DNA of 35,376 nt from positions 1 through 35,376 of the forward strand of contig CALVVS010000010.1 of assembly GCA_944363925.1 (NCBI GenBank), written 5' to 3'. Below the pieces are notes generated by a model. That model had not been told where the DNA came from and made no database searches. It worked only from the letters and a program-made list of their open reading frames with translations. Positions 4,988 through 15,156 of the stretch are shown piece by piece. Origin of the DNA: an uncultured Bacilli bacterium (GTDB lineage Bacteria > Bacillota_I > Bacilli_A > RF39 > UBA660). The translations under genes were made by a program, and so were the position numbers. The stretch's first letter is position 1. Each line of letters starts with the position of its first letter.

Positions 4988-5896
4988 TTATAGTGATAAT
5001 TCATATGGGTCATTTTGGGTGCCTGTGCCTCCAGTGATTTTGACCTCAGAGCTTAGATAGACGGCTGGTCGGACCGCAATGCCGGCATAGACGCCGTTGG
5101 TGAAGTTGCCGACATTGCCGTCGGAATCCACATAAAACGCATAGCTAGAGATGCCAGCAAAAGGCGACAAAGTCCACCAATAAGATACACTAGTTGTATC
5201 CATCCATCCTGTATTTACACAACTACTATAATTATCATTATTTAAACTAAATGAACCACAGCTATTTTTATTACTATTACTCCTTATATACTCTGATACG
5301 GTTGCTAAAGCAACTTTGCCGTTCCATTTTGTTCCATTTTCATTAGTTATTTGATCTGCTAAATCATCATTATCATTTGTTACGGCACCTATACTCCAAT
5401 CTTTGGCAACAATTTGACTTTGGGCTGTTGAATTTAATTCATTATAATACGTTCCATTTAAGTATGTATTTAAACTGGCTGGCCTTGCCCAATTATTCTT
5501 GCCAGAGCTATCCCATACTATATTACCTATACTTTCATTTTTCATTATCTTTATTGTTCCATCTGGCTCTATTGATATTATGCGCCAGCCGGCTTGTTCA
5601 TTATTAAAGGTTACATAATTATTTGGATTTCCACCTTTATAAAAATATCTACCATCCTCATATTCATCTTCATATAATCCATCTCCCGATGTTACTATAT
5701 CAGTATTATCTAATATTGTATCTCCTGCTTTAGGTGGAAAACATACTCCATATAGTTCATCTATAGCTCCTTGCACATCAGTACTTGAAAGACCACTTTC
5801 AGTATTATCATATGTCACATCATTTGAAGGGAAATATGTCGCGGCTATTACGCTTATTGTACATGCTGATATTATTCCTAATAAAAAGCCTGGCAA
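4988..5896 (-). CDS. secreted lectin-like surface protein A (N-terminus interrupted by TGA)
   Basis: A paralogue of the protein at 14224-15156. The hydrophobic signal (LPGFLLGIISACTISVIAA) is followed by the shared motif ATYFPSNDVTYDNTESGLSS and TDVQGAIDELYGVC. Then come the shared blocks DGLYEDEYEDGRYFYKGG, AGWRIISIEPDGTIKI and LNTYLNGTYYNEL. The C-terminus (YWWTLSPFAG ... IAVRPAVYLSSEVKITGG) resembles the C-type-lectin/DUF6273-like folds seen in variable receptors. The best ribosome site (AAAGGAGG) serves ATG 5929, but that frame meets TGA at 5902-5900. The open part begins with TTG 5896, three bases beyond the stop. So this is either a nonsense-mutated gene or one translated by reinitiation. 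The last ~170 bp is GC-rich and codon-atypical. Divergent from an XRE regulator. Likely exported and surface-attached; ligand unknown. Confidence 0.7.
   Translation of the reverse strand: MPGFLLGIISACTISVIAATYFPSNDVTYDNTESGLSSTDVQGAIDELYGVCFPPKAGDTILDNTDIVTSGDGLYEDEYEDGRYFYKGGNPNNYVTFNNEQAGWRIISIEPDGTIKIMKNESIGNIVWDSSGKNNWARPASLNTYLNGTYYNELNSTAQSQIVAKDWSIGAVTNDNDDLADQITNENGTKWNGKVALATVSEYIRSNSNKNSCGSFSLNNDNYSSCVNTGWMDTTSVSYWWTLSPFAGISSYAFYVDSDGNVGNFTNGVYAGIAVRPAVYLSSEVKITGGTGTQNDPYELSL
5005..5175 (-). other. GC-rich, NNY-codon block: candidate variable region
   Basis: Within protein A's C-terminal domain, bases 5041-5160 contain 65 G/C of 120 (54%). The adjacent 5221-5340 holds 34 of 120 (28%). 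Of the 29 codons before CGA-CCA (Arg-Pro of VRPAV), 26 end in C or T and 17 end in C. This is unlike the A/T-ending usage of neighbouring genes and uses CGA rather than AGA for Arg. The encoded segment (FAGISSYAFYVDSDGNVGNF and on) is exactly where the paralogue B differs most. The pattern fits a region rewritten from an AAY-rich template or swapped from another cassette. No template repeat or reverse transcriptase is seen in this window. Confidence 0.5.
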
Positions 5897-5899
5897 ATA

Positions 5900-5929
5900 T
5901 CATTTAAAGAAATCTTTTATTTTTTTCAT
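5900..5929 (-). other. SD-headed 9-codon start of gene A ending in in-frame TGA
   Basis: AAAGGAGG precedes ATG 5929. The frame reads MKKIKDFFK, TGA (5902-5900), TAT, then TTG 5896 in phase with the rest of gene A. Reading TGA as a residue would give one continuous signal peptide like that of paralogue B (MKLVKKVFKNRFF...). A TGG-to-TGA change is the simplest explanation. Confidence 0.75.
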
Positions 5930-5999: not shown

Positions 6000-6092
6000 T
6001 AATTTTTAATGGTATTAAGTTCTTTACACTTTAACTTTATAATTTATATATAATTAAGTTTTGTCTTAAACATGTAAAGGTAGAGTGATATA

Positions 6093-6353
6093 ATGAAAGC
6101 AATGGAATTAGTTGGTTTAAATACTAAATGGTATAGGTATCAAAATAGGCTTACGCAAGAACAATTTGCGAATAAGACGAAGTTTAAAATGGCCTATATT
6201 AGTACTATTGAAAATGGTGATGCGAATTTAACTTGTAAGAATATAGATAATATTGCCAAAACATTTGGGATAAGTGTTGATTTACTGTTTAACGAAGCGA
6301 CAGCCAAGTCAGCTAGAAATTTACCTAAACGCGTTGATTTATATAAAAATTAA
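6093..6353 (+). CDS. XRE-family regulator divergent from surface protein A
   Basis: An 86-residue single-domain helix-turn-helix protein. The HTH_3/Cro-CI fold covers about residues 7-62 (LTQEQFANKTKFKMAYISTI, then ENGDANLTCKNIDNIAKTFG). A short basic tail (LPKRVDLYKN) follows. It is a DNA-binding regulator in the cytoplasm. Head-to-head with gene A, with a 16-bp palindrome between them, it most likely controls gene A. The ribosome site is weak or distant (AAAGG about 12 nt upstream). No own promoter is obvious. The target is inferred from position only. Confidence 0.85.
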   Translation: MKAMELVGLNTKWYRYQNRLTQEQFANKTKFKMAYISTIENGDANLTCKNIDNIAKTFGISVDLLFNEATAKSARNLPKRVDLYKN

Positions 6354-9941: not shown

Positions 9942-10439
9942 CTAATTTTGGGTATTTTTTATTTTATCATAGGTGATAGCTACCGCATATTTAAAATTAT
10001 GGTTGGCTTCTATTTTCATCATTAAATCATTGTATTCTTCATTTTCTATTGGGTATGAAAAAATACATAAATCTTCGGCTTCAACATTTTTTTTGGTTCT
10101 TAAGGCTGCTTCTAATACAGCTATATCAGAGGTTATTTTGTCATACTTATCAGTATTTTTATAGGCTAATATGGCTTTTATCATTATAAAAGTTATGATA
10201 CTATGATCATATTCTTTTTCAAAATATTCATCTAATAATTTTACTTGTTCACGGTAATCGTTAGTATTACTTAGGCATGAGTAATCTTTTTTATATAATA
10301 GCATTACTAATTTTACTAAGTCATATTTTTGAAATTTTTGTTTATGTATAGTATAGTTTATGGCTTCATCTACAATATCATATACTGGATTTTCTAATTC
10401 TAATTTTAGTTTTAAATTTAAGATTTGTTCATCAGTCAT
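9942..10439 (-). CDS. hypothetical alpha-helical protein
   Basis: A 165-residue soluble protein that I do not recognise. It begins MTDEQILNLKLKLELENPVY, is rich in Lys, Asp, Tyr and Ile, has no signal peptide or membrane segment, and looks mostly helical. AAGGGG stands about 7 nt before ATG 10439. It lies between the consensus promoter of the Nudix operon and the terminator of the DUF1700 gene, and seems to be transcribed alone. No motif suggests a catalytic role. Confidence 0.7.
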   Translation of the reverse strand: MTDEQILNLKLKLELENPVYDIVDEAINYTIHKQKFQKYDLVKLVMLLYKKDYSCLSNTNDYREQVKLLDEYFEKEYDHSIITFIMIKAILAYKNTDKYDKITSDIAVLEAALRTKKNVEAEDLCIFSYPIENEEYNDLMMKIEANHNFKYAVAITYDKIKNTQN

Positions 10440-10486
10440 GTTTTATCCCCTTTTCTACTATATAATATTATAGCAAAAAATAAGCT

Positions 10487-14146: not shown

Positions 14147-14178
14147 ATTTGGGAAATTATAATATTTCTTGGGGAAAT
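14147..14178. promoter_or_regulatory. paired palindromic sites in the gene B control region
   Basis: ATTTGGGAAAT (14147-14157) and ATTTCTTGGGGAAAT (14164-14178) share ATTT...AAAT arms and a GGG centre. They lie 6 bp apart, upstream of a TATAAT at 14194-14199 that has no good -35. Two sites fit a two-HTH regulator. The poor -35 would allow activation as well as repression. Confidence 0.45.
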
Positions 14179-14223
14179 AGACTAAAAATATGTTATAATC
14201 ATAATAGGAGGTATGAAAGAAGT

Positions 14224-15156
14224 ATGAAATTAGTAAAAAAAGTATTTAAAAACAGGTTTTTTATATTTATAACTACGGCTTTGATATTTAGTGTGATTGG
14301 AGTATCAGCGGCAACTTATTTTCCTTCTGATGATGTAACATATGATAATACAGTAAGTGGGCTTTCTTCTACTGATGTACAAGGAGCGATTGATGAGCTA
14401 TACGATGTTTGTTCTACACCTGTAACACCACTTATAACGGTAAATGATTTAATTAAAAATGTAGTTACGGTTGGCGATGGCCTATATAAAGATGAGTATG
14501 AAAATGGAAGATACTTTTATAGAGGAACAGACCCTGATAATTATATAACATTTAATGGAGAAAAGGCTGGCTGGCGAATATTATCTATTAATTCAAATGG
14601 GACGGTTAAAATTATTCGCTCTGATAGCATAGGAAATAGGCAATTTAACAATTCTTTTGGAGGCAATGATTGGTCCTCTTCTTCGCTCAAAACATACTTA
14701 AATGGCACATATTATAATTCTTTAACTGATAAAGATAAAATAGCAAGCTCAAGTTTTAGTGTCGGTGGTATTGATGATGAGTTTGATGGTTTAAGCACTA
14801 TAGTCAGTTCAGAAAATAGTTCTAAATGGTCGGGAAAGGTAGGTTTAATAACCGTTTCCGAATATATAAGAGCAAATAATGATGAAACTTGTGACAATAT
14901 ATATGACCATAACAGCAATAATGATATATGTTTAAATTCAAATTGGATATATAATGACAACTCAAGCTTTTGGACTTTAACCCCAGATGATGGCAGTAGT
15001 AGAAGAAGGGTTTACTATATATATTATTTTATAGATGCTTGTTGTGACACAAATATTACTGATTCTCATCAAGTTAGACCTGCCGTTAATCTTATATCTA
15101 GTATTAAATTACGTGGGTTGGGGACGAAAGAAAATCCTTATACAATTGAAACCTAA
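14224..15156 (+). CDS. secreted lectin-like surface protein B
   Basis: A 310-residue paralogue of protein A. The signal peptide MKLVKKVFKNRFFIFITTAL runs to about GVSA. Then come the shared module ATYFPSDDVTYDNTVSGLSS, TDVQGAIDELYDVC, and the blocks DGLYKDEYENGRYFYRG, AGWRILSINSNGTVKI and LKTYLNGTYYNSL. The C-terminus (SFWTLTPDDGSSRRRVYYIY ... QVRPAVNLISSIKLRG) is the lectin/DUF6273-like part. Unlike A, this end keeps the AT-rich local codon use, and its residues between WTLTP and VRPAV are wholly different from A's. I start at ATG 14224, 12 nt after AGGAGG; the ATG at 14213 touches that site and opens only four codons. Likely exported and surface-displayed; ligand unknown. Confidence 0.8.
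   Translation: MKLVKKVFKNRFFIFITTALIFSVIGVSAATYFPSDDVTYDNTVSGLSSTDVQGAIDELYDVCSTPVTPLITVNDLIKNVVTVGDGLYKDEYENGRYFYRGTDPDNYITFNGEKAGWRILSINSNGTVKIIRSDSIGNRQFNNSFGGNDWSSSSLKTYLNGTYYNSLTDKDKIASSSFSVGGIDDEFDGLSTIVSSENSSKWSGKVGLITVSEYIRANNDETCDNIYDHNSNNDICLNSNWIYNDNSSFWTLTPDDGSSRRRVYYIYYFIDACCDTNITDSHQVRPAVNLISSIKLRGLGTKENPYTIET

Follow-up and report, generated by a model that had tools for sequence, protein, structure and literature searches.

The analysed stretch of DNA (the window, 35,376 nucleotides) belongs to a draft bin of 1.44 Mb that is 76% complete with 2.4% contamination. The host genus is known from metagenome bins alone, several relatives having come from animal gut samples, and a deformylase gene neighbouring the gene under study has close relatives in uncultured Bacilli records, including some from sheep and other animal gut samples. 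The gene of protein A, a second member of its family (paralogue B) and the parts discussed below are:

4988-5896, minus strand: open reading frame of protein A, a DUF6273 protein (PF19789, E 1.1e-8), 302 aa long if the TTG is the start codon; its N-terminal segment is hydrophobic, and an AlphaFold2 model with its fold matches indicates a C-type-lectin-like domain
4988-5062, minus strand: C-terminal framework past the variable block, with the stop codon, conserved among paralogues in the alignment
5063-5077, minus strand: downstream anchor GCGGTCCGACCAGCC, matching the GC-rich end common to template and target of two diversity-generating retroelements (DGRs) on contigs C2 and C13; putative site of an IMH-like element
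5075-5161, minus strand: variable block of 29 codons, 26 of them ending in C or T, 53% GC; very probably a DGR-type variable region (VR)
5162-5170, minus strand: upstream anchor TTGTCGCCT, codons L-S-P, common to the C2 template and the templates of the related genome G002
5900-5902, minus strand: in-frame TGA, codon 10 from an ATG at 5929 that is preceded by the ribosome-binding site AGGAGGG; a sense codon in the orthologues
14149-15156, plus strand: paralogue B, DUF6273, with an AT-rich block at about 14986-15072 (GC 0.30)

The TGA may reflect an assembly error, a pseudogene or the use of the TTG as start; translation may begin at this TTG, or the gene may be unexpressed.

The AlphaFold2 model of protein A had a mean pLDDT of 86. 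It matched a gut IgA peptidase in the N-terminal part that contains DUF6273 (9qa6, Z 16.8 over 195 residues); residues 31-322 of this peptidase have been named DUF6273 (PMC12402451). Lower Z scores were obtained with numerous C-type lectins and with TvpA, a DGR protein of Treponema (2y3c, Z 5.3), and the variable block was located at the C-terminal end of the predicted C-type-lectin-like fold. Sequence matches in the PDB were all weak and unconvincing, such as that to F-box only protein 2 (E 0.003). Among the PHROG families, a Hoc-like head decoration family was matched (E 1e-6), but over residues 206-287 of protein A only, for which reason no function was assigned from it; no relatives of the protein were found in viral contigs. 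Most likely, the DUF6273 family displays lectin-like binding tips at the cell surface, where protein A would presumably be anchored through its N-terminal hydrophobic segment.

Composition and codon usage of the block

The GC content of positions 5041-5160 was 0.542, compared to 0.283 at 5221-5340 and 0.295 for the whole window, in agreement with the contrast reported in the preliminary description, and the GC peak of the window fell on the C-terminal-coding end of the protein A gene. In sampled parts of the genome, none of 12,429 windows of 120 bp outside the DUF6273 gene family reached 0.54 (mean 0.302, sd 0.062, maximum 0.525). A recount also confirmed that 26 of the 29 codons preceding VRPAV end in C or T (5075-5161, minus strand). 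Among the six-frame open reading frames of at least 150 aa in the window, this density was found in the protein A gene alone (4 of 9,337 sliding windows), the next-best 29-codon window having 25 such codons.

The foreign codon usage first described for the block was borne out for GGC (5/29 against 4/245 codons in the remainder of the gene) and GTC (2/29 against 0/245), but not convincingly for GCC (1/29 against 6/245), and the single CGA lies in VRPAV, immediately outside the variable block. The extent originally given, 5005-5175, contains the variable part (about 5075-5161), but its start was too generous, because 5005-5062 is shared C-terminal framework. The alignment with paralogue B placed the difference between the two proteins at the same position as the anomaly, as had been claimed.

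The DUF6273 family in the genome and genus

About three dozen places related to protein A were detected by blastn in the same draft genome, and matches to PF19789 were found at 41 places, not all of which are demonstrated DGR targets. Across 44 genomes of the same genus, the DUF6273 counts ranged from 0 to 41. A block could be delimited in 27 paralogues as a variable stretch between W-x-L-S/T-P-like and (V)RP-like motifs. The fraction of C-ending codons in these blocks reached 0.68, whereas it never exceeded 0.18 in the 60 codons upstream; their GC content ranged from 0.28 to 0.63, being at least 43% in 14 of the 27, with the same anchors. The block of paralogue B is interpreted as a variable region that is old and has decayed, and the gradation from fresh GC-rich to decayed AT-rich blocks would document how DGR targets arise, spread and fall out of use. 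At the orthologous locus in related species, DUF6273 genes with very different block sequences were present, an observation compatible with variation between cells or strains but not specific to it.

Two DGRs in the same assembly

The RVT_1 profile matched three places in the genome, two of which are DGRs. In both, a reverse transcriptase (RT), an Avd protein and a template repeat adjoin a DUF6273 target. Both RTs carry the GxxxSQ motif of DGR reverse transcriptases, as LPIGNMTSQ and LPIGGLSSQ, and the Avd proteins matched NF033474 with E 9e-14 and 3e-13. The parts located are:

L012:8206-11506, minus strand: DGR of contig C2, in the order target, template, MutS domain I protein, Avd, RT
L012:10604-11506, minus strand: DUF6273 target of the C2 DGR
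L012, about 10360-10466, minus strand: C2 template, LSPNSGNSNNVFNVNNNNGNFNNNNANNTNAVRPAV
L012:9658-10068, minus strand: MutS domain I protein, between the template and Avd
L012:9314-9664, minus strand: Avd (NF033474, E 9.3e-14, under the NCBI score cut-off; PF22296, over the cut-off)
L012:8206-9339, minus strand: RT (RVT_1, E 2.6e-18; GxxxSQ)
L013:11809-12735: DUF6273 target of the DGR of contig C13

The best PDB match of the C2 RT was the reverse transcriptase 8ub7 (E 4e-33), which we take to be the Bordetella phage DGR enzyme. In the C13 DGR, a transposase-like ORF (L013:10463-11644, plus strand) splits the target from its template; past this ORF come the template, a protein of 119 aa with no convincing family assignment, Avd and the RT. 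Directly 3' of the DGR templates there is a conserved 74-nt hairpin-forming spacer (L012:10283-10356, minus strand), present in 17 of the 44 genus genomes, which is probably part of the template RNA.

When each template was compared with its own target over 90 nt, the C2 pair showed 17 mismatches at template adenines and none elsewhere, and the C13 pair 13 at template adenines and one at another base.

The substitution pattern in protein A

The nearest paralogues of protein A are C17 (L015:6735-7697) and C14b (L016:9726-10655), and a 28-codon block is common to all three. Within it, A differed from C17 at 17, 8 and 3 sites and from C14b at 14, 16 and 3 sites for codon positions 1, 2 and 3, respectively, whereas the 60 codons upstream gave 3, 3 and 13 differences in both comparisons. 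The ratio of changes at positions 1 and 2 to those at position 3 was thus 25:3 (C17) and 30:3 (C14b) in the block against 6:13 upstream (Fisher p = 8e-5 and 1.5e-5). C17 and C14b, identical to each other over the 180 nt upstream, had 20 differences in the block, none of them at a third position.

Compared with the C2 template, A showed changes at 21 of 33 template adenines against 9 of 66 other bases (p = 1e-6), an optimistic figure since the gapped alignment was chosen to favour identity at non-adenine bases; with a single gap, 22 of 35 adenines and 20 of 76 other bases were changed. With a relative's template and the sister copies as reference, the NNY pattern of A is a strong bias and not a strict confinement. 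When the adenines of the C2 template were randomised, the resulting sequences had a GC content of 0.62 +/- 0.04, with 25 of 28 codons ending in C or T and no stops.

In this assembly, two relatives of protein A are accompanied by full sets of DGR components and by template/target pairs with adenine-specific differences, and A itself presents a matching pattern. From the adenine-specific pairs of the two DGRs, together with the bias of A and its paralogues towards codon positions 1 and 2, the block of protein A is very probably DGR-written, as the variable region of a dispersed DUF6273 target. Against this reading stand the three third-position differences that separate A from each sister copy, the in-frame TGA near its normal start, the weaker contrast in the single-gap alignment, the draft state of the bin, and the results of the template searches described below.

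The missing template

The preliminary description predicted a near-identical template next to a reverse transcriptase. No template for the block of A, with its 28-codon spacing, was found in the 76%-complete assembly by pattern searches, blastn or a template-spacer model, nor in the 44 genomes of the same genus by pattern and blastn searches. A covariance model of the C2-type template 3' spacer had a single match in the genome, that of C2, and none for A. The alternative prediction was a set of silent partial cassettes: none was seen for A in the assembled part of the genome, and the family genes listed are mostly full-length, though family members do recombine with one another. The earlier proposal that the block was written or swapped from another locus within a C-type-lectin fold is well supported as regards the DGR class, by the two DGRs with adenine-specific DUF6273 pairs, the NNY pattern and anchors of A and the predicted lectin fold, but not as regards a matching template.

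The template of protein A may lie in the quarter of the genome that is missing from the assembly, or may have been lost or altered, and we infer that A itself was written by a DGR whose template is now absent or unassembled. As no matching template was found and an in-frame TGA follows the normal start, A is best read at present as an orphan or a remote or fossil target, any activity being hypothetical. The case also shows that an anomaly of codon endings and composition in raw sequence can expose a DGR target with no template nearby.

RT-less units and inserted elements

Signs of DNA-level exchange were found in the family. C17 and C14b are mosaic: their sequences upstream of the block are the same, whereas 26 of 75 positions differ over the 25 codons past it. 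In the related genome G002, two loci without RT (L081 and L097) each contain a target VR, a C-terminus, a spacer, a template copy and a second C-terminus. Over the repeat, these template copies show no difference from the template beside the RT, whereas VR and template differ at 18 of 36 and 20 of 36 adenines, with one of 69 other bases changed in each unit. Since the template copies carry no mutations, their transfer most likely took place at the DNA level and not through mutagenic cDNA. In another RT-less unit, G012:C31 (L090), the second copy resembles the template on the left and is mutated on the right, which would fit a crossover within the repeat.

Templates were also found to be interrupted. 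In the present genome, a tyrosine-recombinase element lies inside a template at AACGTGTT (G000:C18, L041, about 6030-6100), and the same insertion at AACGTGTT was detected in the DGR templates of several related species (L099, L084, L091 and L092); one junction of the element carries the palindromic CGTGTTTTATTAGACATGTCTAATAAAACACG.

Together, the RT-less units, the tyrosine-recombinase insertions in templates and the mosaic paralogues suggest the hypothesis that recombination both spreads and retires DGR targets; a VR that lacks a template, like that of A, would be explained in this way.

Alternative origins of the block

The same observations bear on the strongest alternative, gene conversion or recombination between paralogues, by which the block would have been copied as DNA from a family member and not reverse-transcribed into A. 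The mosaic of C17 and C14b, the movement of VR-TR segments by DNA-level recombination in relatives and the failure to find a template for A all speak for it. However, no second identical copy of the block, and hence no such donor, exists in the assembled part of the genome, where the best other copies have 75% identity over 126 nt; moreover, copying alone would not yield differences that avoid third positions and would merely move a block already made by a DGR. We therefore regard gene conversion as a rather unlikely origin of the block.

Positive selection of the ordinary kind, acting on a binding loop with no retroelement involved, would likewise concentrate changes at codon positions 1 and 2. 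It leaves unexplained the absence of third-position changes among the 20 differences between C17 and C14b, the adenine-only template mismatches, the rise in GC and the RT and Avd genes beside targets of the same family, and was rejected as very improbable. Acquisition of a GC-rich domain by horizontal transfer from a different organism, for which the sharp composition edges and foreign-looking codons might be taken, is the least credible and was also rejected, as the closest relatives of the block reside in the same genome, where more than half of the measured paralogues share its anchors and raised GC, and the C2 template of that genome accounts for its composition and codons.

Proposed mechanism

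In the reading preferred here, DGR writing, the reverse transcriptase and Avd would copy an A-rich template with AAC/AAT codons, introducing random bases wherever the template has an adenine. The resulting cDNA would take the place of the corresponding part of a DUF6273 gene, bounded by the anchors TTGTCGCC and GCGGTCCG. AAY codons of the template would so become NNY codons in the target, which would explain why so many codons end in C or T, why a GC-rich island stands in an AT-rich genome and why stops are lacking; both the raised GC and the codon endings are taken as by-products of reading an AAY-rich template with random bases at A. The written residues would fall at the C-terminal end of the C-type-lectin-like domain, where DGR proteins bind their ligands.

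It is also conceivable, and we put it forward tentatively, that RT-less units made of a target end, a spacer and a template spread by recombination into other DUF6273 VRs, where a single RT diversifies them in trans, and subsequently lose the template, leaving fixed receptors like A. If true, a large set of displayed lectin-like receptors would be built up by these bacteria in this way. No description of RT-less VR-TR cassettes of this kind came up among the papers searched, which is not proof of their absence; DGR fragments without RT have been described in Nanoarchaeota (PMC4372165).

Comparison with known systems

DUF6273 proteins are already known as DGR targets in phages, namely the tentaclins of phages nd4 and nd12 and those of Faecalibacterium prophages, with VRs that map to the C-terminus of the DUF6273 domain (PMC10743442; PMC11792537). 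The proteins described here share with them the DUF6273/C-type-lectin-like domain and a VR at its C-terminal end, but are chromosomal, carry an N-terminal hydrophobic segment and occur by the dozen in one genome. What is new is the number of targets and the RT-less VR-TR cassettes in relatives.

Large dispersed sets of targets have been reported for cyanobacteria, with 219 CLec paralogues in 21 genomes, and for Thiohalocapsa PB-PSB1, with 9 DGR loci and 15 targets in 7.95 Mb; there, CLec targets are scattered and remote, some lack a matching template, and mobile elements damage DGR loci (PMC7517822; PMC10907252). The present case is alike in its dispersed remote targets, some of them templateless, and in the mobile elements that damage its DGR loci, and differs in having 41 DUF6273 places in a 1.44-Mb genome, another host phylum and another target family.

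With the DGR of Bordetella phage BPP-1, the system shares the RT, Avd, the template, a C-terminal VR in a C-type-lectin fold and adenine-specific mismatches, whereas the additional MutS domain I protein of the C2 DGR, the many dispersed targets and the missing template of protein A set it apart. The notable features of this case are the number of targets and the host; DGR-diversified lectin-like proteins, up to about 40 per genome, would be placed in a small-genome genus of uncultured Bacilli.
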